From a virus: DNA of 29,854 bases. The stretch lies in IMG/VR virus record IMGVR_UViG_3300008448_000428, positions 1 through 29,854 of that record; one strand, given 5' to 3'. The position numbers and the translations under genes are program-made. A model generated the notes under the pieces. That model was not told the DNA's origin. It did no database searches and saw nothing but the letters and a program-made list of their open reading frames with translations. Below, one piece after another: positions 4,419-29,280 of this stretch; the stretch's first letter is position 1; each line of letters opens with the position of its first letter.

Positions 4419-4902
4419 ATTCTTCACTTTTTTTAGCAGTTAGAATTTTTAGCAACTCATTTCTATCCAATTCCTTACCTTCACCTATAGGAGTTGCATC
4501 TAATTCTTCATTCTTATTTGCCATTTTTTGATCCAAACTAGCCTTTTTTAACTGCAATTCTATCATTTTTATTTTTTTATTTATTTTAGCAGTTTTAGCA
4601 GTAATTGCATGCCCCAACATATTACTTGCTACTCCGAATATTTCTGCGCTAAATCTGCTATCTACTTGCAATCCTAGATCCATTAAATCTTTATAACTAT
4701 CTTTTGCTAAATTGGCAAGATCATCCATTTCAATATCAGATGCTTCTAGACCTCTAACCTGAGGTAAAGCATTTTCAATTTTTTCAAGATTGGAATAAGC
4801 ATCATGAGTGATTACATCTGCTACAGCCTTTTCTAAATTAGATTCATTTACGTCTTTTTCATCTGTAGGCAATTCAAATAAATTTTCAAGTTTTTTTGTC
4901 AT
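4417..4902 (-). CDS. Probable terminase small subunit (gp16-like, 161 aa)
   Basis: This is a small, highly charged, helical protein. The N-terminal peptide MTKKLENLFELP is followed by an acidic linker, then a long helical hairpin region (about residues 50-130: DIEMDDLANLAKDSYKDLMD, then FGVASNMLGHAITAKTAKIN). This pattern matches, from recall, proteins annotated as the T4 gp16-type small terminase in marine myoviruses; gp16 forms a ring and regulates the large-subunit packaging motor. No large terminase is in the window to confirm it. The ATG at 4902 has no Shine-Dalgarno; instead CATAAATA ends 4 nt upstream (4907-4914), which suggests a leaderless late transcript. An alternative is a prohead-core helical protein. 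Confidence 0.5.
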   Translation of the reverse strand: MTKKLENLFELPTDEKDVNESNLEKAVADVITHDAYSNLEKIENALPQVRGLEASDIEMDDLANLAKDSYKDLMDLGLQVDSRFSAEIFGVASNMLGHAITAKTAKINKKIKMIELQLKKASLDQKMANKNEELDATPIGEGKELDRNELLKILTAKKSEE

Positions 4903-4906
4903 ATTT

Positions 4907-4914
4907 TATTTATG
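4907..4914 (-). promoter_or_regulatory. Late promoter-like CATAAATA 4 nt before the ATG
   Basis: The minus-strand motif CATAAATA is followed by only AAAT and then the ATG at 4902. T4 late transcripts start about 6 nt after this element, so the mRNA would begin at the start codon. It also overlaps the TAA stop of the 4910-6031 gene. Confidence 0.5.
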
Positions 4915-6031
4915 AAAAGGTTAACATGTTTTTAAATTTGAAACGATTTGGTATATGTATTAATGCATTTTCATATAAAATTTTATGGTTATGTTCAATA
5001 ATTTCTTTGCATTGTTCTTCTATTTTTTCTAATTCTGAAAGTGATAATTTATTTAATCTATCTATTTCTTTTATTATTGCTAATAATCTTTCGTTATAAT
5101 CAATGATATCATCATATGATTCATCAATATATGGACTAAATGTTCTATATCCTTCAGCCTTTAATACCTTTAATGCATTAAATTGAGAAATCATTATAAA
5201 TGGTTTTTTATAAAATATTGCCCTATAAGTTTTTTCAGTTATAAAACTACTATTATTGGGTTCTGTTTCCAATGAAATATGAATAGGTGCAGATTCAAAA
5301 TAAGATTGCAACTCATAAGGATAATGATACTTTTGATACATTTGTGTATCAATTTGTATGATTTCCGTATACGGTATACCTTTAATCCAAGATAAAATTT
5401 TGTCTTTGTGCCTATTAAAATTTTCAGGTACGTCGTTTATCATTTCTAATTTATTTCTGTGTATAAACCTATCACCAACAAAAGTATAATTGAAGTCCTG
5501 TAATAGATCATTGATTAATAAATGACAATAAATTTCCAATCTCTCTGGCTCATATCTTTTACAAAAAATAGAAAATTTTTTACGATGTAATGTATTTGTA
5601 TACTTAGGTCTAGAAAAGCTTAACACGTTGAACTCAAATAATTCAGATAACCATCTATCATAGGATAATACATTTATGTTTGGTATAATTTCTAAAATAA
5701 AATCTATATCATATTTTAATTGTGTTATTAAATATACTTTAGAAAAATCAAAATTATATTCTTCTATAAATTTTTTATATCTATTAATAATAGATGATGA
5801 ATTTATAGATAAAGATTTACCATGATGTATAATGAGTAACGATTTATTTTTTATTTCTTTAATTTTTCTTTTAAAATCTTTATTAATTTCAACAGAAAAA
5901 TCTGTTGTCTCTATAAACAAACTATTTTCTTTTAATTCATCTACGTTTGGATCAAAAAAATCACAGGAACAATCAATCATTTTCTTTAAAAGAATATAAT
6001 CTGTTTGTTTTAAATTGACATAGATATTCAT
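4910..6031 (-). CDS. Glycosyltransferase-like accessory protein (373 aa)
   Basis: The C-terminal half carries SSFITEKTYRAIFYKKPFIM (residues 261-280), then LKAEGYRTF and a DESYDDI block. The pattern 'TEKT-x-AI-x-KKPFI ... G(Y/F)-x-TF ... DESYD' is one I recall in phage and bacterial proteins related to glycosyltransferases, resembling the nucleotide-sugar half of GT-B enzymes. The KRYEPER stretch (about 158-164) fits a conserved middle segment. The acceptor is unknown; host or virion glycans are inferred. The gene is visibly more AT-rich (K, N, I, Y-rich) than the flanking structural genes and sits between gp4 and the terminase-like gene, as an inserted cargo gene would. Its ATG overlaps the gp4 stop (ATGA), implying translational coupling. 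Confidence 0.55.
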   Translation of the reverse strand: MNIYVNLKQTDYILLKKMIDCSCDFFDPNVDELKENSLFIETTDFSVEINKDFKRKIKEIKNKSLLIIHHGKSLSINSSSIINRYKKFIEEYNFDFSKVYLITQLKYDIDFILEIIPNINVLSYDRWLSELFEFNVLSFSRPKYTNTLHRKKFSIFCKRYEPERLEIYCHLLINDLLQDFNYTFVGDRFIHRNKLEMINDVPENFNRHKDKILSWIKGIPYTEIIQIDTQMYQKYHYPYELQSYFESAPIHISLETEPNNSSFITEKTYRAIFYKKPFIMISQFNALKVLKAEGYRTFSPYIDESYDDIIDYNERLLAIIKEIDRLNKLSLSELEKIEEQCKEIIEHNHKILYENALIHIPNRFKFKNMLTFS

Positions 6032-6462
6032 TTTTTACCATTGTAAAATAAAGAATCTTCATTGATTACTCTAAAAGTGTATCCTTGACTTTTACAGTAT
6101 GCCATAGCAGCAGCCCATTTAGCATGATTGATTGCAACTACTAATCTATCTTTAGCATTTGCCACTTTACTTTCAATTATACTTTGTTTTTTTGGTTTGA
6201 TTTCAACAACTTCTGCTAGTTTTTTTCCAAACTTATTTTCATATACTACAAAAAAATCCGGAACATACATGGATTGTTTTCCGGTCACTGGATTTTTATA
6301 CGGTATTCTCAATGATTCGCTGGCCCAATATAATATGTTTTTATTGTTGTCACAAAAAGTCATAAAGGTTAGTTCCCAACCGGATCGATATGTGGGTACA
6401 TGATTTCCTACATACTTTTGAGGATTCTTAGGAGTATATTTTCCTTGGGCCCATTTTGTCAT
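6028..6462 (-). CDS. 4: Head completion protein gp4-like, nuclease fold (144 aa)
   Basis: The pattern YRSGWELTFMTFCDNN near the N-terminus, then WASESLRIPYKNP, YVPDFFVVY and EVVEIKPKK is the signature of T4 gp4 (head completion). This family shares a TnsA-like PD-(D/E)XK fold: E in GWE, D in PDF, and E-x-K in EIKPK are the likely catalytic residues. In T4, gp4 acts after packaging to prepare the head for tail joining. Length (144) is near the T4 protein (about 150). It follows the 6464-6829 gene by one base (TAA-A-ATG) and overlaps the next gene by ATGA, so it is part of a coupled operon. Confidence 0.85.
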   Translation of the reverse strand: MTKWAQGKYTPKNPQKYVGNHVPTYRSGWELTFMTFCDNNKNILYWASESLRIPYKNPVTGKQSMYVPDFFVVYENKFGKKLAEVVEIKPKKQSIIESKVANAKDRLVVAINHAKWAAAMAYCKSQGYTFRVINEDSLFYNGKK

Positions 6463-6463
6463 T

Positions 6464-6829: not shown

Positions 6830-6838
6830 GATATTATT

Positions 6839-7114: not shown

Positions 7115-8041
7115 TTATATAATACCTTTCCATTGCTCTTGTAAAGATTGAACATAACCGCCATTTGGATCTTCATACCCTGCCTTACCAGGCACAGGGG
7201 AATTATTTCCTGCAGGTGTAACTGTACTTAGAGTCCTATCATAAAACTGTTGATTCCCGAATCCAGGTATAATTTGATCAGGATTATTTCCATCGATTGC
7301 ACCCTCATTATATACAACTGATTCGTAATTTATATCCATCTTACATTCCATTGTTCCGTTGCCTTCGGAATAGTTATACGTGTCATGATCAAATTTAGTA
7401 ATAATAGGATTGATTAATGTGTATGCGGTAAATTGATGCCTAGACAATCCATATACTGTAATGTTTTTAAAGAATGGGGTCTTAGTGGTTGATGTATTGT
7501 TTGCAAACATTTCGCCTATATATCCCCAATTGTTATTCCCGGTTATATCTCCGGCGTATACATTTCTTGAGTTGTAATCTTGTTTAGACGCGCTTTCGCT
7601 TACTGGACCGGACGATACATCTGTTCCTCTGTTACCACGTAATACGTTCAAATTGGTAGTGTCTTTGTAGTAATAAGAGTAATAAGATCTCCACATTTTA
7701 GTAATACTATTAGAATTGTCGTCATGGAATGTTATTCCAACCGGTTCATAGTTTATCTTTGTTTGTATTATTCTTTTTCTATTATACTGATTGTATTCTT
7801 GAGTTTTAATTTGAAATGAAGGCAATTTTATTGTTTTAACGAGTACACTGAAATTGGTAGTAGTACTAGGGTTATATACAGATGGATTTATTTCAAAAAC
7901 GGTGTGAAATAAAAATTTAAATTTAGGTGCTAATGCAAAAGAAGAAGTTCCGAATATTTTATTTGCATGTCGATAGTCACGGAGATAGGCGCCGCTAGCG
8001 GCGCCCTTCTGTAATGACTGTCCCCAATAACCGTTGGACAT
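7115..8041 (-). CDS. Tail-tube-fold protein, probably baseplate-tube junction gp54-like (308 aa)
   Basis: The N-terminus has YLRDYRHANKIFG and LAPKFKFLFHTVFEIN. The core is LVKTIKLPSFQIKTQEYNQY, NRKRIIQTK, YEPVGITFHDDNSNSITKMW and RSYYSYYYKD. The run KLPSF...NRKRIxQTK...PVxxxFHDD is typical of the gp19/gp54 tube superfamily, and the later YGLSRHQFTAYTLINPIIT and FDHDTYNYSEGNGTMECKMD fit the same beta-barrel. T4 gp54 (about 320 aa) starts tube assembly on the baseplate; 308 aa fits gp54 better than gp19. The gene follows gp19 by 4 nt with no Shine-Dalgarno, so coupling is likely. Codons 13-18 lie in a GC-rich 18-bp palindrome (7988-8005). Confidence 0.65.
   Translation of the reverse strand: MSNGYWGQSLQKGAASGAYLRDYRHANKIFGTSSFALAPKFKFLFHTVFEINPSVYNPSTTTNFSVLVKTIKLPSFQIKTQEYNQYNRKRIIQTKINYEPVGITFHDDNSNSITKMWRSYYSYYYKDTTNLNVLRGNRGTDVSSGPVSESASKQDYNSRNVYAGDITGNNNWGYIGEMFANNTSTTKTPFFKNITVYGLSRHQFTAYTLINPIITKFDHDTYNYSEGNGTMECKMDINYESVVYNEGAIDGNNPDQIIPGFGNQQFYDRTLSTVTPAGNNSPVPGKAGYEDPNGGYVQSLQEQWKGII
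7988..8005. other. 18-bp perfect GC-rich palindrome inside a coding region
   Basis: GGCGCCGCTAGCGGCGCC is its own reverse complement, 16 of 18 bases G or C in an AT-rich phage. It encodes Gly-Ala-Ala-Ser-Gly-Ala (codons 13-18) of the gp54-like gene. In RNA it can fold to a 7-bp stem with a CUAG loop about 36 nt after the start codon. Confidence 0.9.
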
Positions 8042-8045: not shown

Positions 8046-8684
8046 TTAGATACCGACTGAAGTTACTGTACCTGTCGGTGTACCACGAGTAACTGGTGTT
8101 CCTACTCCGGAATTTAATCCGTCCGGCGCACTTTGAACAGCATTATCATATTGAATTGTTAGTGCAATTTTCACATCTTCTGATGTTCCATAGTTAACGT
8201 TATTGTAATTAACTTGTTCTATGTAACAACCATACAATTCCCATTTTTCTAATACTACAGGTCCTGTGTTACCGTTGCCACCGTCTAACATGTCAATTTC
8301 CATTGAAAACTTGTAATCACTTGCAGATGCAGCAGATGCTTGTTCAACAAAGTCCATTTGCTTTTGAAGTTGTTGACCAATCAATCTAGAAACAATGCCG
8401 GATGCATCATCTCTGATGTTAACTGATAGGGTTTGCCATGTTGCTTTACCTGCCATGTATAATGTAGAGTTATAAACAGGTAAAGTTATTTTTTGAAATT
8501 GAACGTTAGGGCGACTAACGTCAACTACTTGTCTAGTCATTTCTTGTGGATTAGGATCCAATCCAAAATTCAAAAATAGAACTCTAAATCTATATTGTAA
8601 TTTTGGCATCAGTAGGGTACCATTCTGCGGTGTAGCATCTGCCGCTACTGAAAAGTTATTTAATGATTGAGAGGCTGTTGCCAT
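8046..8684 (-). CDS. 19: Tail tube protein gp19 (212 aa)
   Basis: The protein shows the gp19 family pattern: MPKLQYRFRVLFLNFG, TRQVVDVSRPNVQFQ, LPVYNSTLYMAGKATWQTL, NIRDDASG, QQLQKQMDF, DYKFSMEIDMLDGGN, VLEKWELYGCYIEQVNY and ALTIQYDNA. gp19 stacks as hexameric rings to form the inner tail tube through which DNA passes. The C-terminal ~25 residues are a Gly/Thr/Val tail beyond the usual fold; T4 gp19 is about 163 aa. It has its own late promoter and a strong Shine-Dalgarno (AGGAGA), and follows the sheath gene as in T4. Confidence 0.9.
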   Translation of the reverse strand: MATASQSLNNFSVAADATPQNGTLLMPKLQYRFRVLFLNFGLDPNPQEMTRQVVDVSRPNVQFQKITLPVYNSTLYMAGKATWQTLSVNIRDDASGIVSRLIGQQLQKQMDFVEQASAASASDYKFSMEIDMLDGGNGNTGPVVLEKWELYGCYIEQVNYNNVNYGTSEDVKIALTIQYDNAVQSAPDGLNSGVGTPVTRGTPTGTVTSVGI

Positions 8685-8706: not shown

Positions 8707-8714
8707 TATTTATC
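8707..8714 (-). promoter_or_regulatory. T4-like late promoter GATAAATA for tail tube gene
   Basis: GATAAATA on the minus strand lies 22 nt upstream of the gp19 ATG, with AGGAGA between. It sits directly after the hairpin at 8717-8747, so tube mRNA can be made separately from sheath mRNA. Confidence 0.75.
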
Positions 8715-8748: not shown

Positions 8749-11700
8749 TTACGCTGATAATTCACCTGTGTTTAGTATACGAACTGGAATGTAAATAAAT
8801 TCTACTGCTTTAACAGGTTCTATAGCAACATCTACCCATAACTCATTTCTGTCTATTCTAGCAGGTGTGTTGTTACTTTCGTCACAAACCACGAGATAAT
8901 CATATATACCACGTTTTGCAACTAAATCTAAACATAAAGATTCAATTGTATTGGCAATCTGACCTCTGGTGAATCCGTCATTAGGTTCGAACACATATGG
9001 TCTTCCTGCCAATGTTAACTGTCTACGCATGTATGCAATTAAACGTGCAACATTAGTTCTATCTAGAGCACTTTGTGAGTTAAAACTTGTCTTATTACCA
9101 TAGTTTAACAATCCTTGTCCTGTAAAGAATACTAAAGGATTAATAAAGTTAGTGTAAAGAACGTCACGAACACCTAATCTAGTTTTAATTACTTGAAACT
9201 CACCGGTTTGTCTATTTACATAACCGATATTTGCTGCATTATCGATGATACCACGTCTGGTTCCAGCTGCTGCTAACCAAGGATAAGCAACAGTGTCATT
9301 TCTTACGAATGTTCTTAGCATCATATGACTTGCAGGCACAGCAACTAAATTACCACTTAGATCACTTGTGATACCACTTGGATAGAATAGACCCATATAT
9401 GTGTTTCTAGTTACTAATCCCTCCTCACCTGTACCTGTTGCGCCGGCTGCATTAGTAGCCCAATTTTGTATATCAGTTGCACTATCTGCTAGACCAAGTG
9501 GAGTATCACCTAAAATATATCCTGTTTCACCGCGATCTGCATTTAATACAATCATATTGGGTTGTAATTCTGGATAATTAGGTGCTGCCATTAAGTTAAA
9601 GAAATTATCTTCATCTCTAACATCAGTGTTTGTATCTATAACTGATCTCAATGCTTCGACTACCATAGCACGTTGCGCCTTTCTACCCATATAAGGTGCA
9701 CCATTGCTCATTAATCCGCTTACACTTACCCAAGCATCACGTTCAGTTGGTAAAGATCCGCCAGGGAAATTAGCGTTACTAAAGTAATTCTCTTTGAATT
9801 GTTTTACGTTATATCCTGAACGGCGTGTATTAAATAATAACATTCCTACTGGATATAATGCTGATTCAGGTGCATCCAAATCTAAGTAGTTACTAGTAAG
9901 TAAACTAGTGATTGTAGGGAAAGGGTCATCAGTTACAGAAGTAACTCCATTAGTCGCCCAGCGTGCGTCAGAGAATACTATTCCATTAGGATTTAGTTGA
10001 TCACTATTGTCAATCAACACCCATTGATTGGTTCCATTAACTGATTGCCAACGATATATAACTGGATAGTTTTCTAGATTACTAGTGTCAATCCATAGAT
10101 CACCCCATACTAAAGAAGTGCCATCGCTCTGAGTTGTAGGTTCGCTTGCACTTACAATAGGCCCATTAGGATCTGTTGAGTTGGTTCCGGTTGGTGTCGG
10201 AAATCCATTTAGGTCATAGTTTTGATTCTTGTAGCCTTTCCAGTTTCCATTATAATTTACCATTATGTCAACTTCATCTACTACTGAATAGAACCAATTA
10301 CGATTATTTTCAGGATTGGCCACCGGTGCGCCTTCATTAGCAGTATAATCAAAATATCTCCAATTGCTTGCTAAAAGATTGTTTCTAACAGGAGGTTGTC
10401 CGGATACATATGTTATAGCGACCACTGCTCCGCCTACACCTACTTCAGTTACTTCAACTTCTAAATCATTAACTACATCCACACCACCAAGTTCACTGCC
10501 TCGGAATGTACAAATTTCTCCTAATGTATACCCTGTGCCGGCATTAGAAAATGAGTTAGTATTAAGTGTATAAATTCCAGCTCCGGAAACTGTTACGATT
10601 AATTCTAATCCTGTTCCTGATCCAAATATACTAGAATATTGCGGTACATTATTAAACTGGACGCTTATGCCGTTATTATATTTTATTCCATCCGTTGCAG
10701 TAGTAAATCCGGCTTCATTTAATACACCGTTAGAAGAATATAAATCACTATTTGATCCAGTATATATATGGTCATCTAATAGAATAACTCCACCTGTAGT
10801 GTGTGTTAATTGAATTGCACCGGATGTTGTAACCTCAGCAGTAGTATTAGGTATTCCTGCAGCAGACCAAGCTATCACAAAATCTTCGGCATTATCACCT
10901 TCATTAATAGTCACTGTGTATACATCCGAAGGAATAGTTGATTGATTTGGTACTGAAGACCTAACATATAAGAGATAAGGACCGGTACCTAATGGACTCA
11001 ATGAACTAAAATCAGGATTAGTATTAGTTCCAGTTACTATCATTGGTCCAGTGGTAACTCTTTCCCAAAAATATACCGGTGATATTTGAGATGTAGCCAG
11101 GTTATTGAAATTATATTGAGCGTATACTGTTCCTGCAGGTACCGCTTGCCCGCCGGTAGGATCTAATTGATATATGGCATCAGAGTCACTTGTTGATAAT
11201 GTAACATTTTTTGTTATCCAACTTTCGGTCACATTGCTCCATTCTTGCAATACAGGATTTAATCCCGAACCCCCCACTTTAAACCACACAGAGCCAGTCG
11301 GTCTAGGCGTAGATTGGCCAGCCTGCCATAAAGGTTGTTGTGCATTTGTACCCCAAAATACTGTAGGTTGATAATATATTCCGGCGGCTATTCCTATATC
11401 GTCTAAAATATCCCCTGCTATACTTGCAATTGAAATGTATCTTGCCGGTCCAGCAGATGACTCAGGTATGTCACAGAATATACATACTTTATTATTTCTA
11501 ATGGCTGCTGACAAATATGTATATCCATAACTATTTATTAAGTTTACTATGCCTGTAGGGGTATTATTTGGTGCTATTGGAACAGTTACTCCGAAGGTAA
11601 AATCGCCATCTAAATTGATAGAAAAACTATCACCTGGATTTAATGTTGATGCACTTTGTGTGCCTTGTATTGTGGGTATATCTGATCGCCATTCTGATGT

Positions 11701-12348
11701 TCCTACGCGAGCCCAAGTGTTTGTAGTAGTTTTGTAGAAAAACTGACTAGCAGTCTCATATGGCAAGGTTCCTTGATTTAACGCATATACTGCATAATCA
11801 CCTATTTGTCCTACGGAATCAACAGGAGCTCCACTCACCATATATGCATTATCAGTAATTACAATAGGAGCTTGGATTCCAAAACTACCGGTAATTGCAT
11901 CGAATTCATATATGCCCCAAGTGGTAGTAGTCGTATCTAACCAATATGTACCGTTATTTACATTTCCGGTTGGTCTACTAGTTGTTCCTACTAGACTGGC
12001 TAAGTCGATATCTGCTCTTAATACGTAACAACGATTTGTAACACCTAGCACGGAATATGCTGCCAATAAGCCATATTCGTTTAATTCATATCCTTGTAAC
12101 GGAGTACCATTACTAGTAGTGTAAAAGAATGGATTTCCAAATAAGGTAACCAAATCACGCTGACTAGTAACTTGATAAAGTTTACCAGCATTTGCTGCGG
12201 TCGTTCCTGATGCGATACCAGTACCAGTAGGATCAGCCTTGTTTTCTGCGGTTGCTACTAAAACGAAAGGTACTGTACCAGGGGCGGCTGGTAAATACTG
12301 ACTTTGATCAATTATTTGTACTTCTACGCCCGGAGATGTTAATGCCAT
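8749..12348 (-). CDS. 18: Tail sheath protein gp18, enlarged (1199 aa)
   Basis: The N-terminus (ALTSPGVEVQIIDQS, then PFVLVATAENKADPTG) and the C-terminal ~370 residues identify a phage contractile tail sheath. C-terminal marks are MVVEALRSVIDT, YPWLAAAGTRRGIIDNA, INPLVFFTGQGLLNYGNKT, NVARLIAYMRRQL and EPNDGFTRGQI. Sheath subunits contract around the tube to drive it into the host. T4 gp18 has 659 residues, so this one is nearly twice as long; the excess lies between about residues 116 and 830. That insert contains small beta-rich modules, three with a 'GxxW...W' layout (125-156, 349-384, 745-783) and one GTGYTLGEI-type module (604-650), and would decorate the tail surface. A TATAAATA late promoter lies 54 nt upstream and the Shine-Dalgarno is AAAGGAAT. 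Confidence 0.93.
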   Translation of the reverse strand: MALTSPGVEVQIIDQSQYLPAAPGTVPFVLVATAENKADPTGTGIASGTTAANAGKLYQVTSQRDLVTLFGNPFFYTTSNGTPLQGYELNEYGLLAAYSVLGVTNRCYVLRADIDLASLVGTTSRPTGNVNNGTYWLDTTTTTWGIYEFDAITGSFGIQAPIVITDNAYMVSGAPVDSVGQIGDYAVYALNQGTLPYETASQFFYKTTTNTWARVGTSEWRSDIPTIQGTQSASTLNPGDSFSINLDGDFTFGVTVPIAPNNTPTGIVNLINSYGYTYLSAAIRNNKVCIFCDIPESSAGPARYISIASIAGDILDDIGIAAGIYYQPTVFWGTNAQQPLWQAGQSTPRPTGSVWFKVGGSGLNPVLQEWSNVTESWITKNVTLSTSDSDAIYQLDPTGGQAVPAGTVYAQYNFNNLATSQISPVYFWERVTTGPMIVTGTNTNPDFSSLSPLGTGPYLLYVRSSVPNQSTIPSDVYTVTINEGDNAEDFVIAWSAAGIPNTTAEVTTSGAIQLTHTTGGVILLDDHIYTGSNSDLYSSNGVLNEAGFTTATDGIKYNNGISVQFNNVPQYSSIFGSGTGLELIVTVSGAGIYTLNTNSFSNAGTGYTLGEICTFRGSELGGVDVVNDLEVEVTEVGVGGAVVAITYVSGQPPVRNNLLASNWRYFDYTANEGAPVANPENNRNWFYSVVDEVDIMVNYNGNWKGYKNQNYDLNGFPTPTGTNSTDPNGPIVSASEPTTQSDGTSLVWGDLWIDTSNLENYPVIYRWQSVNGTNQWVLIDNSDQLNPNGIVFSDARWATNGVTSVTDDPFPTITSLLTSNYLDLDAPESALYPVGMLLFNTRRSGYNVKQFKENYFSNANFPGGSLPTERDAWVSVSGLMSNGAPYMGRKAQRAMVVEALRSVIDTNTDVRDEDNFFNLMAAPNYPELQPNMIVLNADRGETGYILGDTPLGLADSATDIQNWATNAAGATGTGEEGLVTRNTYMGLFYPSGITSDLSGNLVAVPASHMMLRTFVRNDTVAYPWLAAAGTRRGIIDNAANIGYVNRQTGEFQVIKTRLGVRDVLYTNFINPLVFFTGQGLLNYGNKTSFNSQSALDRTNVARLIAYMRRQLTLAGRPYVFEPNDGFTRGQIANTIESLCLDLVAKRGIYDYLVVCDESNNTPARIDRNELWVDVAIEPVKAVEFIYIPVRILNTGELSA
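9859..12003 (-). other. Modular insertion within the tail sheath gene
   Basis: This encodes residues ~116-830 of the sheath. Visible modules are RPTGNVNNGTYW... at 125-156, RPTGSVWFKVGG... at 349-384 and SLVWGDLWIDTS... at 745-783. Two TxNxGD-type beta segments lie at about 235-295 and 476-520, and an AGTGYTLGEI segment at 604-650. None resembles the sheath core; boundaries are by eye. Confidence 0.6.
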
Positions 12349-12402: not shown

Positions 12403-12410
12403 TATTTATA
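12403..12410 (-). promoter_or_regulatory. T4 late promoter TATAAATA for tail sheath
   Basis: An exact T4 late consensus TATAAATA on the minus strand, 54 nt before the sheath ATG, with AAAGGAAT near the start codon. It is in the divergent region shared with the HNH gene. Confidence 0.8.
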
Positions 12411-12457: not shown

Positions 12458-12465
12458 TCTAAATA
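12458..12465 (+). promoter_or_regulatory. Possible degenerate late promoter TCTAAATA
   Basis: TCTAAATA (one mismatch to TATAAATA) lies 7 nt before the HNH ATG, with no Shine-Dalgarno. Weak match; listed because the short spacing is like that at 4907, 16135, 19308 and 29273. Confidence 0.3.
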
Positions 12466-12472: not shown

Positions 12473-12820
12473 ATGAAAAGACCCATATGTAAAACTTGTA
12501 ACAAATTATATTGTGCTGTGAATTATCACCGTGATGGAATAATACACTATAGAAGTATTTGTGATGATTGTGGTAGGAAAAAAAAGAGCCAAAGACCTAG
12601 AAAATCTCTTTGGCTACGAGGAGGGTATGAAAAAAAGAAAATCTGTGATCTATGTGGTTTTCATTCTAAATTTAATTCACAAATAACAATTTTTCATGTA
12701 GATGGAAATTTAGAAAATATAAATCCAAGTAATCTTCGAAGTATCTGTTTGAACTGTGTTGAAGTAATTAAAAAACATGAAGTTACTTGGAAAAGGGGCG
12801 ACCTAGAGATTGACCATTGA
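12473..12820 (+). CDS. HNH endonuclease-like zinc protein (115 aa)
   Basis: From the ATG at 12473 the protein begins MKRPICKTCNKLYC. It has CxxC pairs at 6/9, 30/33, 58/61 and 92/95, so it should bind two zinc ions. The segment FHVDGNLENINPSNLRSICL (about residues 74-93) has the HNH layout: H75, D77, N79, N87, then CxxC. HNH proteins cut or nick DNA; in T4-like phages they can be homing enzymes or junction/packaging nucleases. From recall this family is widely conserved in marine T4-like phages, which argues against a recent homing element. The upstream in-frame ATG at 12392 is rejected because the sheath promoter lies there. Its 3' end overlaps the dNMP kinase gene by 18 bp, tail to tail. 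Confidence 0.75.
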   Translation: MKRPICKTCNKLYCAVNYHRDGIIHYRSICDDCGRKKKSQRPRKSLWLRGGYEKKKICDLCGFHSKFNSQITIFHVDGNLENINPSNLRSICLNCVEVIKKHEVTWKRGDLEIDH

Positions 12821-13499: not shown

Positions 13500-14297
13500 T
13501 TAACCTTGGATCCAAGTTAGAGGCTGAGAAAAATCTACATATCGTTTAAGATCATCAATTAATTGTTCTTGTGATGCTTTGGACTCTGACTTCATTGCAG
13601 TACCATTTAATGATGTGCCACCACCCGGGCCCGCAATAGATGCAAATTTTTCACGTGCTTCACCTATGATTCCTTTTAGCACGGCCAATGTAAAATCACC
13701 GATCCAAACGCCTGCACCAGGGTCTTGTAATAATTCAATTTCAGTACGCTGCACATCAGCCCATATAAGAATACGTTCGCCGGTTCCCTTAAAATCACGC
13801 ACTACTCTCAATACTTTAGTAACCGGATTAAAAGTATAATTGACATATCCACCGAACATACGTGCCGCTAATTCAACATAACCTGCATAAAAATCGTATG
13901 TTGCCATGCCGCCTGTATAATTATAATTTAATAAGTAAGTATTAAGTATGGCACTTGAAAACGGATCAAATGATGTAGAACTAGGGCCGGTCTCTAACCC
14001 CACTGTTCTACGAAATAAACTTCTTACGTTGATGAATTCACTAGGTAACGTATAGGTATCGACGTTTTGAATCACTGTCATTAGTGTATATGATTCTACT
14101 GTAGAATTTTGTGCTCGTTGACGATAAATTTTTATAGCATAATTAAATGCTGCTTCATAATGTTGCGGATCTAATTCTAGATCCACAATATCTCCGCCTA
14201 ATCTAAGACGAATATTATTAAAAAGTGCTTCTTTTAATTCATCCAACGTGAGGCTAGATGGAGTACTCATGGGAGTTGCTAATACACTGACAGTCAT
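13500..14297 (-). CDS. 13: Neck protein, gp13-like (265 aa)
   Basis: The N-terminal block has LDELKEALFNNIRLRLGG, VDLELDPQHYEAAFNYAIKI and YRQRAQNSTVESY. It is followed by TYTLPSEFINVRSLFRRTVG, SFDPFSSAILNTYLLNYN and a Gly-rich FASIAGPGGGTSLNG loop near the C-terminus, ending QPLTWIQG. I recall this pattern in proteins annotated as neck/connector gp13 or virion structural in marine T4-like phages. In T4, gp13 and gp14 form the neck that closes the filled head. T4 gp13 is about 309 aa. A gp14-like gene is nearby on the other strand. A late promoter lies 20 nt upstream with AGGAAT Shine-Dalgarno. Confidence 0.6.
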   Translation of the reverse strand: MTVSVLATPMSTPSSLTLDELKEALFNNIRLRLGGDIVDLELDPQHYEAAFNYAIKIYRQRAQNSTVESYTLMTVIQNVDTYTLPSEFINVRSLFRRTVGLETGPSSTSFDPFSSAILNTYLLNYNYTGGMATYDFYAGYVELAARMFGGYVNYTFNPVTKVLRVVRDFKGTGERILIWADVQRTEIELLQDPGAGVWIGDFTLAVLKGIIGEAREKFASIAGPGGGTSLNGTAMKSESKASQEQLIDDLKRYVDFSQPLTWIQG

Positions 14298-14317: not shown

Positions 14318-14325
14318 TATTTATC
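14318..14325 (-). promoter_or_regulatory. T4-like late promoter GATAAATA for neck gene
   Basis: GATAAATA on the minus strand, 20 nt before the ATG at 14297, with AGGAAT between. It lies just before the stop of the MazG gene, separating the early-type genes upstream from late neck expression. Confidence 0.75.
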
Positions 14326-17884: not shown

Positions 17885-17892
17885 GATAAATA
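17885..17892 (+). promoter_or_regulatory. T4-like late promoter GATAAATA for gp15
   Basis: GATAAATA lies 43 nt upstream of the TTG start at 17936, with AAAGGAAT 6-13 nt before the start. This gene can be transcribed apart from the neck gene. Confidence 0.7.
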
Positions 17893-19307: not shown

Positions 19308-19315
19308 GATAAATC
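19308..19315 (+). promoter_or_regulatory. Late promoter-like GATAAATC 5 nt before the ATG
   Basis: GATAAATC is followed by ATTAT and the ATG at 19321, between the gp15 stop and the Nudix start. It differs from GATAAATA only in the last base. There is no Shine-Dalgarno. Confidence 0.45.
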
Positions 19316-21206: not shown

Positions 21207-21214
21207 TATTTATT
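21207..21214 (-). promoter_or_regulatory. Late promoter AATAAATA
   Basis: AATAAATA on the minus strand matches TATAAATA in 7 of 8 bases and lies 81 nt before the ATG at 21125. Confidence 0.55.
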
Positions 21215-21297: not shown

Positions 21298-21660
21298 TTA
21301 AATTACACTATTATGATATTTTTTCTTTTCACGTATAGGATCGTTTAATTTTTCAGCAATTTTATTTTTTAATGCATACCTTTCGATATTGATATCACGA
21401 ATTAAAATTGCTCTGCGGCCTATTTCTTCTAATGGATATTTAAGCTCTACTACGCATTTTTTAAAATCATCTTCCATATCCCAAATACGACGATGAACTT
21501 CAATAAGTTGGTTTAGGTCTTCTTGGATATCGATTAAATTGAATTTATTGATTTGTTTTTCATAAAACTGAACTTCATCGATATTATTTTGTAACTTTTG
21601 ATATTTTAATTTAGCAATAGAGTATCTATCTACTAGTTCAATAAGGGCTAACTGAAACAT
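21298..21660 (-). CDS. Helical conserved protein (120 aa), function unknown
   Basis: The protein is almost wholly alpha-helical and charged: LIELVDRYSIAKLKYQKL, VQFYEKQINKFNLIDIQEDL, LIEVHRRIWDMEDDFKK, EEIGRRAILIRDINIERYAL. The layout 'DRxSIxxLKxxKL ... IxxxRRIWDxE ... RAxxIRxxN' is one I recall in small bacterial and phage proteins, often near sugar-modifying genes, without a proven role. No catalytic motif is visible. It has a perfect TATAAATA late promoter 17 nt upstream and AGGAGA Shine-Dalgarno, so it is expressed late. Another possibility is an assembly chaperone. Confidence 0.7.
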   Translation of the reverse strand: MFQLALIELVDRYSIAKLKYQKLQNNIDEVQFYEKQINKFNLIDIQEDLNQLIEVHRRIWDMEDDFKKCVVELKYPLEEIGRRAILIRDINIERYALKNKIAEKLNDPIREKKKYHNSVI

Positions 21661-21677: not shown

Positions 21678-21685
21678 TATTTATA
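21678..21685 (-). promoter_or_regulatory. T4 late promoter TATAAATA
   Basis: Exact TATAAATA on the minus strand, 17 nt before the ATG at 21660, followed by AGGAGA. Confidence 0.8.
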
Positions 21686-21708: not shown

Positions 21709-22233
21709 TTAATATCCAGTAGTGCCGGTATTAGCATGTGCTGCACCTAATTCAGTAATACTGAATGGCGCAGCAGTGGCTCCGGTTACATTCAAATACG
21801 CAACTGTATTACCTTGCCCTACTATGATACTTCTTTCTACTGTATTAGAAGGTATAATTGCACTGTTTGCGGTTACGCTTACGTAAGGTACTCCATATGG
21901 ATTATAAGTGAATCCTGCGCCTGAAATAGCCACATTGGCGTTAGCAGTTAGAGTTAAACTAGTGTTATTAGCGATAGAAGATACAATTCCTACTGTTGTA
22001 CCGGTGCTATTACCTATCCAAGAGCCTATTGTTAACTGTGATAAGAATACTGTAGACGATCCAGTAATAGTTGTACTATTAGTAGCAGCAGTTACTGTTC
22101 CTGTACCTGAAGTGTTTGGAAATCCTGTAGAAAAATGAATAGGTGAACTAGTGGTTGCTATTCTTATTTTATCCGTCTGAATATTAGCAGATGCCGCTGC
22201 TGAACCTGATGCCGTGTATACGTATGATGCCAT
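21709..22233 (-). CDS. Small virion decoration-type protein with inserted module (174 aa)
   Basis: The ends form one domain: ASYVYTASGSAAASANIQTD-KIRIATTSSPIHFSTG at the N-terminus and SNTVERSIIVGQGNTVAYLN with SITELG at the C-terminus. I recall such short proteins in marine T4-like phages as structural. Between them (residues ~43-110) sits a 'GTGTVTAATNSTTITGSSTV' module that resembles residues 143-211 of the 19749-21125 protein. It is almost free of Lys and Arg, typical of surface beta structures. The late promoter is 18 nt upstream and AGGAT precedes the ATG. Confidence 0.7.
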   Translation of the reverse strand: MASYVYTASGSAAASANIQTDKIRIATTSSPIHFSTGFPNTSGTGTVTAATNSTTITGSSTVFLSQLTIGSWIGNSTGTTVGIVSSIANNTSLTLTANANVAISGAGFTYNPYGVPYVSVTANSAIIPSNTVERSIIVGQGNTVAYLNVTGATAAPFSITELGAAHANTGTTGY

Positions 22234-22251: not shown

Positions 22252-22259
22252 TATTTATC
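22252..22259 (-). promoter_or_regulatory. T4-like late promoter GATAAATA
   Basis: GATAAATA on the minus strand directly follows the TAA stop of the large fibre gene and lies 18 nt before the ATG at 22233. Confidence 0.75.
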
Positions 22260-25200
22260 TTATAATCTTCCTACTGCCACTTCTATAATCCCCTCTATAC
22301 CTTCAAAGTTTTGTAATGCTTTGCCTATGATAGAACCTATTATAGGAGAGTTAGTAGGTCTGGCATAACCATTGCCGCCGCTGATTAGTAAATCTCCCTT
22401 ACGTATAGTTCCTCTAACTTTCACTGGAACTCGACCTTGAAGAGCAACAGGTAGTGCTATACCAGGACAAGAACTATTCATGATATATGCTGGATTAGTT
22501 GACACGACTCCTGCTACTCTTATAGTAGCATCACTAGCAATTGTTATTTCTTTTTCACCGCCAAATTCAACCACTGTACCGGGTTCATAATTTATGTCTG
22601 ATTCATAATATTCTGCCAAGTCAGCATATGTTGCATTTAATCTAGAACCGGCTGTTAACGACCAATTACCTGTTATATTACCTGCAGTTGTATTACCGCC
22701 CGTAGTAATATCTGTAGTTTGCAAAACGCCGTTCTTATTAACATTTAGCCTAGATACTCCGCCTACTTGAAGGTCTAAAAGGTAACTTGCGGCTGCACTA
22801 TTAGTATTAGTTATATTAAGTCTTAGTCCGGTAAATCCTATAGTTGCATTATTCCATGTTTGTTCTAATAAGAACGGGGCAGTTGCAGTCAAACTACCTG
22901 AATTTGCTGTAAGAACAGTTAATGTTCCGGTACTTGTTATATTAGGTTGTGCGTTAGTAGTTACGGTACCTGCAGTAGTAGCAGACGTAGCAGATGACAC
23001 TGCCCCTGATACATTTCCCCCTGGAATTGCGGTCAGGCCGGTTGCAGCACCGTAATAGGCAGATGCATATACGTTACCTGCAACTCCAAGACCTCCTCCA
23101 ATTACTAATGCCCCTGATGCAGTAGAAGTTGCAGCAGTTGTCATTACTACATTTACTGTAGTATCACTTATAATTGCTCTATTAGACAATACCTGTATGG
23201 TATTTCCGCTACTTCCAGGGGTAGAAGTTTGAAAGACAATTTTTCCGGCGTTAGCACTTCCAGTAGATGATCCGGCTTTGATGGTGATATCACCGCCCAA
23301 ATGATTTAATCCTGCTGCCTCTCCACCTGATAGAGTCATGGCGCCGCCTGCACCATCATAGGTACCACCAGTAATAACTACATTACCTCCTTTAGCACCA
23401 TATGTGTTTGCAGATGCACCTGAATAAATTCCTACTGCACCCCCTTGCCCTTGACCATAACCATTTCCAGCAGTTACCGTTGCAATGCCCCCGGCGGCAT
23501 TGCCTGAACTATTAGCACTGCCACCAGTCAATACTAAATTTCCACCGATACCAGTGCCATTACCTGACGCAGCGGTTATATTAATGATCCCACCCGCACC
23601 ATTAACATTAGTGTTACCGGAACCAGTAATATTCAATATATCACCTGCTGTACCTCCTTTTTGAACATTGCCTAAGGTTACAGTTCCAGTAACTGTAAGT
23701 GAAGTTAAATTACCTACACTAGTTACATTTGGTTGAGCAGCAGTGGTTAATGTGCCTCCTAGTAATACAGCACTTAGTGCGCCGGTTGCAGCATTAAATG
23801 TTAAATTTGCGTTAGCCCCTTCTGCTATATTACCTGAAGTAGCATTTGCTAATATCAGATAGTATGTACCTGTAGTTACTAAGGATGTGTTAATAAAATC
23901 AGCAACGTTAGCGTATGCGACATTAAGATTTGCTACCCGAGTTGTACTGTTTACTACTATAGGTGCTTGACCAGTTGCAACATTAGACCTCAAAAAGGCT
24001 GCTAAAACATTGCCCGGAGACTCGAAATTATTGCCTATTATATTACCTACTGCTTGTATAGTAGTATTGCTATAGAACTTAGTAGCAGACAGATTTCCGG
24101 TAGCAACATCAAACCCTAAATTAGCATTAGCGGATAATGCTCTATTTGCAGTGCTGCTTCCATTTACAAAAACAGGATAATATGTTCCGGTTGTGCGTGT
24201 AGTAACCACACCAAAATCACTTACATTAGAATATGTAACATTAAGATTTGATACACGTGTTGTACTAGTTACAGTTAATGGTGCCGTTCCTGTAGCCACA
24301 TTAGAAATGAAGCGAGATGATGTAACTAATCCAGATGAATTTAAATTACCTACATTCGCATTGCCGTTAATAGTCATCACGTATACTGCACCACTGGTAT
24401 TCCAAGTAAAATCAGAACTACCGCTTAGAGTACCGGATAGATTGTATTGAATGGCAGTATTTGCGCCTGCTGCCAGTAATGTTGTACCCGAAGATCCTAA
24501 AGAGGCAATTGCTCTACCACCAGTCGCATATACTGTGCAAGAACCTGATGCGGTAGTTAATGTTAGTTCAGTGCCTCCGCTTTCTAACGATAATGTTATT
24601 GTTGTTCCGGTAGGTTTAGTTTTTACGTAATAAGTAGTAGCAGAGTTTAGTACACCAAATGTTGTTCCTATAAATTTTATAGCATCTCCTACAGTAAAGG
24701 CTGAAGAAGAACTTACGGTAACTCTATTATTAGTTGCCGAAGTTGCTGTGGCAGTAGTATAAGGAAATGCAGTATCACCTGAAGCATCATAGGTGGTAGT
24801 TAATCCTGAATCCGTATATAAAGAAAAAGTATTAGCAGTTAGTACATTAGCATATAATGTTTGACCATTCAAGTCATAACCTACGCTCCCTGCAGCACCC
24901 GGTAAATTAGTAAATGTGACCTGAGCACCGTCAGTAAAAATGTTTTCATCTTCAGTAGTTACCACAGCAGGATTAGCATTAGATACATTTTCAATATATG
25001 ATACTAATGTAGATTTCGGAGTCCAAGACAAATTACCTGTGCCATCGGTTTCTAGTACATAGCCTATGGCGCCACCTGTTATCCTAACATTTCCAGCGTC
25101 ACCTAAATCTATTAATCCCCCTGCATCACCCCCTCGATTCACCCAATTGGTGCCATCATAAGTTAATACTTGTCCATCTTCAACTGATATTGCAGAAATG

Positions 25201-25406
25201 TCTAAATTTCCAACAGAACCGTCTAATTGGTCAAATGCAATATTTGAATATGAAGTCAATACTTCAATGTTTTCGTTAGGTGATACCTTACCTATAAATA
25301 ATCTTTTTGCATCGCTAGCGAAACCTAGTTCTGCTTCATCGAGTTGCGGCAAATCAACTATATTGCCTGAACGATGTTGTATTTTTGAAATCTGTACTAT
25401 GGCCAT
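22260..25406 (-). CDS. Large tail fibre protein (1048 aa)
   Basis: Residues 1-55 (AIVQISKIQHRSGNIVDLPQ, then LDEAELGFASDAKRLFIG) resemble the N-terminal attachment domain of phage tail fibres and tropism-determinant proteins. Next come a YVLETDGTGNLSW segment (116-128), beta modules (150-290), two ~75-residue repeats (368-443, 474-545), and a Gly-rich region (about 581-725, GGNxxxxGG pattern) that looks like a beta-solenoid shaft. The C-terminal 120 residues (ATYADLAEYYESDINYEPGT, VAGVVSTNPAYIMN, ALQGRVPVKVRG, KGDLLISG, IGKALQ, IEVAVGRL) are the common fibre-tip domain of many marine phages. The protein should bind the host receptor. A late promoter lies 29 nt upstream; no clear Shine-Dalgarno. 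Confidence 0.85.
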   Translation of the reverse strand: MAIVQISKIQHRSGNIVDLPQLDEAELGFASDAKRLFIGKVSPNENIEVLTSYSNIAFDQLDGSVGNLDISAISVEDGQVLTYDGTNWVNRGGDAGGLIDLGDAGNVRITGGAIGYVLETDGTGNLSWTPKSTLVSYIENVSNANPAVVTTEDENIFTDGAQVTFTNLPGAAGSVGYDLNGQTLYANVLTANTFSLYTDSGLTTTYDASGDTAFPYTTATATSATNNRVTVSSSSAFTVGDAIKFIGTTFGVLNSATTYYVKTKPTGTTITLSLESGGTELTLTTASGSCTVYATGGRAIASLGSSGTTLLAAGANTAIQYNLSGTLSGSSDFTWNTSGAVYVMTINGNANVGNLNSSGLVTSSRFISNVATGTAPLTVTSTTRVSNLNVTYSNVSDFGVVTTRTTGTYYPVFVNGSSTANRALSANANLGFDVATGNLSATKFYSNTTIQAVGNIIGNNFESPGNVLAAFLRSNVATGQAPIVVNSTTRVANLNVAYANVADFINTSLVTTGTYYLILANATSGNIAEGANANLTFNAATGALSAVLLGGTLTTAAQPNVTSVGNLTSLTVTGTVTLGNVQKGGTAGDILNITGSGNTNVNGAGGIINITAASGNGTGIGGNLVLTGGSANSSGNAAGGIATVTAGNGYGQGQGGAVGIYSGASANTYGAKGGNVVITGGTYDGAGGAMTLSGGEAAGLNHLGGDITIKAGSSTGSANAGKIVFQTSTPGSSGNTIQVLSNRAIISDTTVNVVMTTAATSTASGALVIGGGLGVAGNVYASAYYGAATGLTAIPGGNVSGAVSSATSATTAGTVTTNAQPNITSTGTLTVLTANSGSLTATAPFLLEQTWNNATIGFTGLRLNITNTNSAAASYLLDLQVGGVSRLNVNKNGVLQTTDITTGGNTTAGNITGNWSLTAGSRLNATYADLAEYYESDINYEPGTVVEFGGEKEITIASDATIRVAGVVSTNPAYIMNSSCPGIALPVALQGRVPVKVRGTIRKGDLLISGGNGYARPTNSPIIGSIIGKALQNFEGIEGIIEVAVGRL
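23772..23987 (-). repeat. Fibre repeat copy 2 (residues 474-545)
   Basis: Encodes SNVATGQAPIVVNSTTRVAN with NVAYANVADF, TTGTYY and ANLTFNAATGALSA, clearly homologous to copy 1 at 24078-24305. Confidence 0.85.
24078..24305 (-). repeat. Fibre repeat copy 1 (residues 368-443)
   Basis: Encodes SNVATGTAPLTVTSTTRVSN with NVTYSNVSDF, TTGTYY and ANLGFDVATGNLSA, homologous to copy 2. An in-frame duplication lengthening the fibre is the simplest reading. Confidence 0.85.
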
Positions 25407-25435: not shown

Positions 25436-25443
25436 TATTTATC
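25436..25443 (-). promoter_or_regulatory. T4-like late promoter GATAAATA for the large fibre
   Basis: GATAAATA on the minus strand, 29 nt before the ATG at 25406. Confidence 0.7.
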
Positions 25444-26977: not shown

Positions 26978-27298
26978 TTAAACTCTGAAACTTTCTCCGC
27001 AACCACATCGATCTTTTTCATTTGGATTTTTAAATTCAAATCCTTCATTTAATCCATTTTTAACGTAGTCTATTACCATACCTGCTAAATAAGGAACGTT
27101 TTTAGGACTTACATAAATATTACACTTTTCAAAAGGTAAAACGATATCAGTAGATTCAGGAGTATCCACAAACTCTAATACATAGGCTAAACCAGAACAT
27201 CCAGTGGTTTTTACTCCCACTTTTATTCCTAATCCCTTGTTTCTTTTTTCTAGTTGACTATTTATTTTGTTAATCGCAGATTGAGTTGCTGTTATCAT
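26978..27298 (-). CDS. iscA: IscA/SufA-type iron-sulfur cluster carrier (106 aa)
   Basis: The protein matches bacterial IscA along its whole length (E. coli IscA is 107 aa). TTGCSGLAYVLEFVD contains C34, LNEGFEFKNPNEKDRCGCG carries C98 and C100, and the end is ESFRV. These three cysteines bind the iron or 2Fe-2S cluster that A-type carriers hand to apo-proteins. All are intact, so it should be functional. No IscS, IscU or SufBCD is in the window, so it would draw on the host pathway. It lies inside a phage operon: its ATG overlaps the upstream stop (ATGA) and its stop abuts the SGNH ATG. It is an auxiliary metabolic gene. Confidence 0.95.
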   Translation of the reverse strand: MITATQSAINKINSQLEKRNKGLGIKVGVKTTGCSGLAYVLEFVDTPESTDIVLPFEKCNIYVSPKNVPYLAGMVIDYVKNGLNEGFEFKNPNEKDRCGCGESFRV

Positions 27299-27621: not shown

Positions 27622-27624
27622 TAA

Positions 27625-28323
27625 TTACCTTTTTGCTCTTCCTACATTACCTACGATTTCTTCTGGTTCTTCAATGGGGGGCATCTCATCTACTTCAGTA
27701 GAATCTACCTCAACATCAGTATCTGTTACATCTGTGCCCATTTGATCAAATCCTTCAGGCTCGGTTGGTTCAGGCTCTACAAAACTATCCCCTTGCCCGG
27801 TTATTAGATTTCTAGCAGCTTTGAGTTGAGAAAATGCTTCTTTTAATGTATCACTTAGAATATCTAATTGTGAGGAAACTTGCTCATCATAGCCTTGAGC
27901 CTCATTTACTCCAATTTCTGATTCTATAGAATCTACTATAGCAGGAAGTTCTTTGACTTGCATTTGTCCCACGTCCTCAAGCATTTTTTGAATAGAATCT
28001 ACTAAATCTTGAGCAGCAAGAACAACTTGAGATTTTTCTACTTCTTCATTTTCAACTACTATTCTAGTAGAAGGCGTTCTCATCAAATTATTGAAATGAG
28101 AGACCAATGCTTCTTCCATAAAAACTAATTTCATATAAGAAGGACTAGTTTGAGTTTTATGAAAATTAGGAGAATCTTTTGCTTCATTTGCTAATGTTCT
28201 AACTTTTTTTAGCATATTTTGTGTGTCTATTTTAGACATTTTTGACACATCAAATGATATCTTATAATTCTCTTCAAGAGCATTCAAGGCATACATTTTT
28301 TTATCAAAATCGTTTAATTTCAT
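27625..28323 (-). CDS. Helical, acidic-tailed conserved protein (232 aa), possibly head core/assembly
   Basis: The N-terminal two thirds are helical with coiled-coil character (MLKKVRTLANEAKDS, VEKSQVVLAAQDLVDSIQKM, QVKELPAIVDSIESEIGVNE, LDILSDTLKEAFSQLKAARN). The C-terminus is a Pro/Glu/Asp-rich tail (PEPTEPEGFDQMG, PPIEEPEEIV) ending in a basic GRAKR. Such a long helix plus acidic tail is common in scaffold and prohead-core proteins, but I do not recognise T4 gp22, gp67 or gp68 in it, so the role is inferred only. The late promoter is 25 nt upstream and the Shine-Dalgarno is weak. The gene leads an operon running through IscA to the nuclease. Confidence 0.7.
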   Translation of the reverse strand: MKLNDFDKKMYALNALEENYKISFDVSKMSKIDTQNMLKKVRTLANEAKDSPNFHKTQTSPSYMKLVFMEEALVSHFNNLMRTPSTRIVVENEEVEKSQVVLAAQDLVDSIQKMLEDVGQMQVKELPAIVDSIESEIGVNEAQGYDEQVSSQLDILSDTLKEAFSQLKAARNLITGQGDSFVEPEPTEPEGFDQMGTDVTDTDVEVDSTEVDEMPPIEEPEEIVGNVGRAKR

Positions 28324-28348
28324 AGTCGTATCTCACATGGTTATATAT

Positions 28349-28356
28349 TATTTATC
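28349..28356 (-). promoter_or_regulatory. T4-like late promoter GATAAATA overlapping a stop codon
   Basis: GATAAATA on the minus strand shares bases with the TGA stop of the 28355-28825 gene (TGATAAATA) and lies 25 nt before the ATG at 28323. It would drive the operon down to 25504. Confidence 0.75.
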
Positions 28357-28825
28357 ATTTTACAGAAAACTTTTCTGATTGCCAAATACGTGTCTGAACA
28401 ATGAAAGTATTCATTTCTTCTTGCATATATTTTTTTCTAGAAATTTCTTCACTAAGTTTAGAAGCATATATTAATTTATCCGAATAATCTATTGATTTTT
28501 TATTAAGTAAAGATTTATGAATTACAATTCCATTGTCTATACTTGATAATATTTTATCTAGATATTCTATTCTATTACATTCAGTAAATCTGTTCCTATA
28601 ATCGAATATGCACCAAGTTACTGCATTTTTTATACTAGAAAATATTTTTTCATTAGAGTTATATCTAAAAAGAATTTTATATCCGTTTTTCCATTTTGTT
28701 ATACAATATCTATCAAATAAATCGTATGTGCCATCTTCGTTTTGTAAAATGATTAAATTTTTATATTTTAGTATAAAATCTTTTGAAAAGAATTTTTCTA
28801 ATTTTTCATTGTTTCTATCAGTCAT
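28355..28825 (-). CDS. Conserved phage protein (156 aa), function unknown
   Basis: From the ATG at 28825 the protein begins MTDRNNEKLEKFF. A central region (YDLFDRYCITKWKNGYKILF, then FSSIKNAVTWCIFDYRNRFT) looks like a small globular domain. A long charged helix follows (RIEYLDKILSSIDNGIVIHK, SEEISRKKYMQEEMNTFI). I recall the 'SxKNAVTWCIFDxRN' segment in marine T4-like phages with no known role. The longer frame opening at 28867 is rejected because the 28825 ATG overlaps the previous stop (ATGACTGA), a normal coupled arrangement here. The gene is AT-rich compared with the structural genes. Confidence 0.65.
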   Translation of the reverse strand: MTDRNNEKLEKFFSKDFILKYKNLIILQNEDGTYDLFDRYCITKWKNGYKILFRYNSNEKIFSSIKNAVTWCIFDYRNRFTECNRIEYLDKILSSIDNGIVIHKSLLNKKSIDYSDKLIYASKLSEEISRKKYMQEEMNTFIVQTRIWQSEKFSVK

Positions 28826-29267
28826 TATGTATTCCAAAATGTATATTTTTATACTTATTACCGGCATCTAAGAAAGTAGATAAATTTTGATATTCTGACC
28901 CGCATAAAATCATAGGTACGCCATGACAATCGCTATACAATGATCCTAATTCATCTATACCATTATCAAACACACTATGATGCATGATATCAAAGGTGAA
29001 ATGCCAATATACCAATTTTTCATTTTTATGATATTCTGATCCAAAATAAACTTTAAATTCAGGCATTGTATTAATTCTTTTGGGATCAGTAACCACTTCA
29101 GGCTGTGATCTTAAATTTATTATTTGTAATATTGTATCAAAATTGGCCTGAGTGTTTCTATTTTTTAGCCATTGGTCATAGTTTTGCTCTATGTCGGGTT
29201 TTGATCTATTATAAATACCTGTTTTGGTAATATCAAAAAGTGTATAACATGATATTCTATAACTCAT
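28818..29267 (-). CDS. Conserved phage protein (149 aa), function unknown
   Basis: The protein starts MSYRISCYTLFDITKTGIYN, followed by KNRNTQANFDTILQIINLRS, a YWHFTFDIMHHSV strand and ELGSLYSDCHGVPMILCGSE. It looks like one alpha/beta domain without catalytic motifs I can name. I recall relatives in marine T4-like phages as hypothetical proteins. The true start is the ATG at 29267; a TTG codon three bases upstream is in frame but has no support. A perfect TATAAATA ends 5 nt before this ATG, so its late mRNA would be leaderless. It overlaps the next gene by 8 bp. Confidence 0.7.
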   Translation of the reverse strand: MSYRISCYTLFDITKTGIYNRSKPDIEQNYDQWLKNRNTQANFDTILQIINLRSQPEVVTDPKRINTMPEFKVYFGSEYHKNEKLVYWHFTFDIMHHSVFDNGIDELGSLYSDCHGVPMILCGSEYQNLSTFLDAGNKYKNIHFGIHND

Positions 29268-29272
29268 CAAGA

Positions 29273-29280
29273 TATTTATA
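29273..29280 (-). promoter_or_regulatory. T4 late promoter TATAAATA 5 nt before the ATG
   Basis: Exact late consensus on the minus strand, then TCTTG, then the ATG at 29267. It lies just after the terminator at 29289-29315, so it starts a new unit. No Shine-Dalgarno. Confidence 0.75.

Follow-up and report, generated by a model that had tools for sequence, protein, structure and literature searches.

Late promoters placed directly before start codons suggest leaderless mRNAs in uncultured relatives of phage T4

How is a gene translated when its promoter leaves hardly any room for a leader? The question is raised by a 29,854-base virus record from IMG/VR (IMGVR_UViG_3300008448_000428; 35% G+C, no tRNAs), referred to here in its full length as the window. 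Its protein matches mark it as a fragment of a jumbo-type phage in the T4 superfamily, with PA5oct and Atu_ph07 as relatives. The late box of the window is NATAAATA. An initial annotation of the sequence had divided its occurrences into two classes, twelve lying 17 to 81 nucleotides (nt) from a start codon and four ending only 4 or 5 nt before an ATG, with a weaker fifth case at 12458. Every listed motif was found at the position given, the four short gaps proved to be as described, and the fifth measured 7 nt. The short-class boxes, their genes and one adjoining terminator are as follows:

4907-4914, minus strand: late box CATAAATA, 4 nt before the ATG at 4902
4417-4902, minus strand: leaderless candidate gene, phrog_16202
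12458-12465, plus strand: weaker box TCTAAATA, 7 nt before the ATG at 12473
12473-12820, plus strand: leaderless candidate gene, HNH-like endonuclease (HNH_3, E 0.014, a match short of the Pfam cut-off), divergent from the sheath gene
16135-16142, plus strand: late box GATAAATA, 4 nt before the ATG at 16147; upstream gene divergent
16147-17844, plus strand: leaderless candidate gene, virion structural protein (phrog_11591)
19308-19315, plus strand: variant box GATAAATC, last base off consensus, 5 nt before the ATG at 19321
19321-19737, plus strand: leaderless candidate gene, Nudix hydrolase (phrog_1198, E 7.6e-20)
29273-29280, minus strand: late box TATAAATA, 5 nt before the ATG at 29267
28818-29267, minus strand: leaderless candidate gene, unknown protein
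29286-29311, minus strand: intrinsic terminator of the upstream gene, predicted from sequence (hairpin 29293-29311, T run 29286-29292); the late box follows immediately

The answer favored here is that gp55-type late promoters very probably yield leaderless mRNAs for a subset of late genes. In the window itself, the abundance of the motif is uninformative, since ATAAATA occurs 24 times where shuffled sequences predict 24.5. Its placement tells more: 14 of the 24 copies lie no more than 90 nt upstream of a start on the proper strand (mean of 3.0 for permuted 7-mers, n = 21), and three stand at a gap of 4-5 nt before an ATG, against 0.19 for permuted 7-mers.

A bimodal distribution of box-to-ATG distances with a conserved 4-5 nt peak, as the initial annotation had anticipated, was found across related genomes. 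When copies of TAAATA in 1.2 Mb of related loci were tabulated by their distance to an ATG that begins an open reading frame (ORF) of at least 70 codons, peaks appeared at 4-5 nt (47 + 46 = 93 sites) and at 18-22 nt, with about two sites per position between them; permuted motifs that do not overlap the box gave a flat distribution. Since this set was enriched in two query families, the count was repeated on whole contigs for which the presence of one relative was the sole ground of selection. The short peak was present in all of the uncultured genomes or contig sets tested, with 9-34 genes each and Poisson p values from 1e-11 to 1e-41, although the genome counts are approximate because ORFs were called by a simple script. 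Observed and expected numbers of sites at 4-5 nt were 18 vs 0.46 in G003, 9 vs 0.29 in G013, 15 vs 0.57 in G004, 23 vs 0.17 in G011, 15 vs 0.49 in G007, 14 vs 0.55 in G008, 14 vs 0.47 in G005, and 34 vs 0.92 and 14 vs 0.27 in the two parts of G001.

Cultured phages share the layout in part. Pelagibacter phage HTVC008M has 11 short sites where 0.14 are expected, every one at exactly 5 nt and at an annotated start, with gp2, gp3, gp4 and gp48 among the genes concerned, and Rhizobium phage RHph_I1_18 has 4 where 0.21 are expected (p 7e-5), together with two at 6 nt. With the same code, the model phages T4, Aeh1, Syn9 and PA5oct gave 1, 0, 0 and 2 sites at 4-5 nt, respectively, none of them significant, and Phosso, SCTP-2, phiM12, S-SM2, P-HM1, Atu_ph07 and CBB showed no clear excess by simple pattern counts. 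By these counts, the layout is conserved in uncultured aquatic T4 relatives and at least one cultured ocean phage, in 10 to 50 genes.

A lack of conservation in relatives was one of two outcomes that, by the initial annotation, would refute its proposal. Homologues of all four short-class genes were fetched and the DNA before their starts was read, counts being of distinct upstream sequences, and the short spacing proved to be strongly conserved. The clearest case is the 28818 family, in which the box lies 4-8 nt from the start in 35 of 36 upstreams and the class is short in 8/8 genomes. The order is nearly always the same: the hairpin terminator of the upstream gene, the box, 4-6 nt and the ATG. 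The protein has more than 560 relatives in IMG/VR with a mean column identity of 71%; it has no match in Pfam or PHROG, and a sequence search for cultured relatives found none. Its predicted model is confident (predicted local distance difference test, pLDDT, 85.5), with structural matches only to uncharacterized phage proteins, including those of Atu_ph07 and RaK2, and no convincing match among solved structures.

In the 16147 family, 14 of 16 upstreams are short by the same measure. The product had been called a gp14-like neck protein; its match to a virion structural family stands, while the gp14 identity found no support. On the minus strand at 16096-16124, before the divergent gene 14852-16066, lies a near-perfect sigma70 promoter (TTGACA, 17 nt, TATAAT), and 10 nt separate its -35 hexamer from the late box at 16135. 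Many relatives retain TTGTCAA at this place, which suggests that divergent early and late promoters are packed into 80 bp.

The 4417 family includes both classes. Thirty-four of its 48 upstreams are short (4-8 nt), and 12 more have the box at 19-24 nt. In the tree, the long class makes up one branch of 12 rows (support 85/74) amid short rows, so the class switched about once and has otherwise been inherited. The leadered variant (L030, L043, L053, L054 and relatives) has a conserved ACTACTATTATAGGATAGTAG stretch with a possible small hairpin around the Shine-Dalgarno. The label "terminase-like" that this gene had received is unsupported, as its sole match is phrog_16202, a family of unknown function.

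For 19321-19737, the proposed Nudix assignment was borne out by the phrog_1198 match. The identical variant box and 5-nt spacing recur in 7/7 nearest relatives, a canonical ACTAAATA stands at 5 nt in L132 and L133, and the upstreams of many distant relatives have no box. Elsewhere, a family of HNH-like genes that resembles the one at 12473, as judged by the N-terminus only, is mostly short (6 short, 1 long).

Class also follows gene identity beyond the window. Pairwise concordance of class within gene families was 0.84, compared to 0.50 with shuffled labels (shuffled maximum 0.62), and by this measure class is a heritable property of the gene family. The large terminase gene is short in 6/6 uncultured genomes and, in a wider search, 60 of its 68 distinct upstreams carry the box 4-6 nt from the start; the portal gene is short in 3/4 genomes. 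The sheath (6/6), the gp6-like wedge (4/4) and the 27625 family (8/8) are long, as is a family of long repetitive proteins taken as tail fibers (19/19). A Shine-Dalgarno precedes the major capsid gene, and the 100 nt before this gene hold no box. In the uncultured genomes, structural genes carry boxes, and none was found at the early genes gp41 and uvsX. The division is suggestive of an expression-level rule, with low-copy products (terminase, portal) in the short class and high-copy ones (sheath, fibers) in the long class.

The short-class starts themselves have two properties expected of leaderless genes. A Shine-Dalgarno-like word stands before 4.7% of short genes, compared to 53% of long ones and 35% of genes overall, and none was found in 83 short upstreams from three families. 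Start codons at a gap of 4-5 nt are ATG in 142 cases, GTG in one and TTG in two; in leaderless mRNAs of E. coli, non-AUG start codons work poorly (PMC9031893). A small protein starting MPTYTF is leaderless by position in both cultured phages, at 5 nt in HTVC008M (gp190, 142360-142674) and at 6 nt in RHph_I1_18. The base before the AUG was considered as a mark of the initiator and set aside as weak, since the long class favors T too.

The boxes are close to TATAAATA with variation at the first two positions, the pattern by which T4-type late promoters are recognized; the second position is A or C in this group, as was also reported for Aeh1 (PMC1524935). Host RNA polymerase would use them with the help of a gp55-like sigma factor. 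Such a factor is present in the relatives G003 and G007 (phrog_12791, E 3.5e-73; both E 4e-72 or better); it had no match among the genes called in the window, which is a fragment. The HTVC008M proteins gp33 and gp45 gave no BLAST match in the uncultured genomes, a search that distant homologues could escape.

With T4 late boxes spanning -13 to -6 (PMC1524935, PMC2988020), +1 falls on the A of the AUG when the gap is 5 nt and is one position off when it is 4 or 6. A box 4-6 nt before the ATG would therefore start its transcript at or within a nucleotide of the AUG, to be translated leaderless, while a box at least 16 nt before the start codon would leave space for a short leader with a Shine-Dalgarno. 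Spacings of 7-15 nt are avoided, the simplest reason being that they would give leaders too long for initiation at a 5'-terminal AUG and too short for a Shine-Dalgarno. A likely use of the short class is compact expression, probably at a modest level, for late proteins needed in few copies, the large terminase and portal among them, with the abundant sheath and tail fibers keeping their leaders. The missing Shine-Dalgarno, the near-exclusive ATG, the second peak and the T4 geometry all agree with leaderless mRNAs, and the interpretation is supported as far as the transcript start; an effect of the class on protein level or timing is only suggestive.

Several points weigh against this interpretation. 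It borrows the position of the transcript start from T4, and the identity between gp55 homologues in the uncultured genomes and the one in HTVC008M is only about 28%. Under strict T4 geometry, a gap of 4 places +1 on the U of the AUG, so that a one-nucleotide shift has to be assumed. The Nudix box of the window is off consensus, the pyrimidine before the AUG is favored in the long class also and is thus a weak sign, and the low-copy interpretation rests on few genes.

The alternative that survives best concerns function only and is compatible with leaderless mRNAs: the short spacing could be a by-product of genome compaction, with no effect on level or timing. Compaction does contribute, as gaps no longer than 20 nt hold 44% of the co-directional short sites, compared to 8% of long sites. 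However, divergent short sites are often roomy (median 80 nt), and class tracks gene identity: terminase and portal belong to the short class, sheath and wedge to the long one. That compaction is the whole explanation is possible, if somewhat unlikely.

It is considerably less probable that coupling or reinitiation on longer read-through mRNAs accounts for most translation of the short-spaced genes and that the adjacent box is a minor internal promoter. The upstream stop does lie within 20 nt of the ATG in 56 of 128 co-directional short sites, and in many relatives of the 4417 family the upstream gene ends near the start. However, the upstream gene is divergent at 62/190 short sites, and translational coupling is excluded there because no upstream cistron can supply the ribosome. 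In HTVC008M, the ATGs of the divergent genes gp2 and gp4 are 26 bp apart and each has its own box, an arrangement retained in close relatives. A terminator precedes the genes of the 28818 family, and read-through would not require an exact 4-5 nt spacing to persist.

A still weaker case can be made that transcripts start further downstream and that the protein begins at a later AUG. It draws on the fact that the transcript start in this group is known only by analogy to T4, and it is very improbable given where coding begins. In the 4417 family, differences at codon positions 1, 2 and 3 are 0.28, 0.08 and 0.44 after the ATG and 0.65, 0.65 and 0.62 before it; codon periodicity thus begins at the short-class ATGs and is absent upstream, which shows those starts to be real. 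Conserved N-termini also begin at the first ATG, leadered 4417 relatives set a Shine-Dalgarno before the same ATG, and the short starts of HTVC008M are the annotated ones. A chance pile-up of an AT-rich motif before ATGs, for which only the unremarkable motif count in the window speaks, is refuted by the conserved spacing, the flat permuted motifs, p values down to 1e-41 and the lack of a peak in the AT-rich T4 and PA5oct genomes.

Two candidate causes of the leaderless class were rejected. A phage-encoded ribosomal protein bS21 as its translation partner is found in HTVC008M and G001 but is missing from the other short-class genomes, and phages without a clear short class (PA5oct, Atu_ph07, Phosso and SCTP-2) have it too. 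Host class as the sole cause fails because Atu_ph07, Phosso, phiM12 and OLIVR5 infect Alphaproteobacteria like HTVC008M, yet show little or no excess.

The twelve long-spaced sites of the initial annotation were also correct, with AGGA/GGAG-like words before the start in 10 of them (the exceptions being 25436 and 28349). The long-class late boxes, with their distance to the start, are:

1182-1189, minus strand: 73 nt before the ATG at 1108 of a gene leaving the window at its left end
4411-4418, minus strand: 19 nt, with Shine-Dalgarno, for 3768-4391
8707-8714, minus strand: 22 nt, with Shine-Dalgarno, for tail tube 8046-8684
12403-12410, minus strand: 54 nt, with Shine-Dalgarno, for tail sheath 8749-12348
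14318-14325, minus strand: 20 nt, with Shine-Dalgarno, for head-tail adaptor 13500-14297
17885-17892, plus strand: 43 nt, for 17936-19303
21207-21214, minus strand: 81 nt, for 19749-21125
21678-21685, minus strand: 17 nt, for 21298-21660
22252-22259, minus strand: 18 nt, for 21709-22233
25436-25443, minus strand: 29 nt, without clear Shine-Dalgarno, for tail fiber 22260-25406
28349-28356, minus strand: 25 nt, for 27625-28323
29751-29758, minus strand: 45 nt, with Shine-Dalgarno, for 29334-29705

Among annotated phages, Atu_ph07, Phosso and PA5oct come nearest to the window, with identities of about 40%. T4-like sheath, tube and head closure genes were found in the window, and the large terminase in relatives. 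PHROGs matches in the window also include MazG, a dNMP kinase and an exonuclease, besides the Nudix hydrolase and these structural genes:

6028-6462: head closure protein
7115-8041 and 8046-8684: two tail-tube-like genes
8749-12348, minus strand: tail sheath
13500-14297, minus strand: head-tail adaptor
17936-19303, plus strand: sheath-like (sheath-stabilizer-like) protein, TTG start

At 26978-27298 there is an iron-sulfur cluster assembly protein (Fe-S_biosyn, E 1.6e-19), a host-type metabolic gene. Positions 1-460 on the minus strand hold a strongly repetitive collagen-like coding sequence, probably a tail fiber truncated by the end of the contig.

Leaderless mRNAs as such are well known (PMC9031893). 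Within the open-access literature, no account was found of T4-type late promoters with a leaderless class; this novelty is provisional, as most subscription papers lay outside the search. In a study of pelagimyophages, published methods for middle and late promoters failed on those phages (PMC7029224), and the short-gap layout is one possible reason why late promoters were missed. Late transcription in the model T4-like phages checked is leadered; here, a single type of promoter appears to support two ways of translation, which are assigned gene by gene and conserved across hundreds of environmental phages. With this layout as a simple rule, late genes and true start codons can be predicted for uncultured phages, and the cultured HTVC008M and RHph_I1_18 are systems in which the purpose of leaderless translation is testable. 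In aquatic and soil bacteria, much of the T4 superfamily may even run a two-tier late program, in which box-to-AUG spacing alone assigns genes to leaderless low-copy or Shine-Dalgarno translation, possibly with ribosomes altered during infection that favor one class; this wider view is put forward tentatively, as somewhat less likely than not.

Among known systems, the closest is the gp55/gp33/gp45-dependent late promoter of T4, with which this group shares the 8-bp box, a gp55-like factor and the placement of boxes before structural genes and not before early ones. Unlike here, the boxes of T4, Aeh1, Syn9 and PA5oct lie about 16-60 nt from the ATG with a leader, and there is no 4-6 nt class. 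The predicted 5'-terminal AUG, the lack of a Shine-Dalgarno and the strong preference for AUG are shared with bacterial and phage leaderless mRNAs such as that of lambda cI. In contrast to mRNAs of the cI type, the class is here built into a phage late promoter, at 10-50 late genes per genome that stand beside leadered ones. Two stable gene classes per genome, leadered and leaderless, are also described in two reports on Mycobacterium (PMC7148126, PMC4633059). Compared to the system set out there, it is a viral late sigma factor that would drive the leaderless class here, in phages that also use Shine-Dalgarno leaders.

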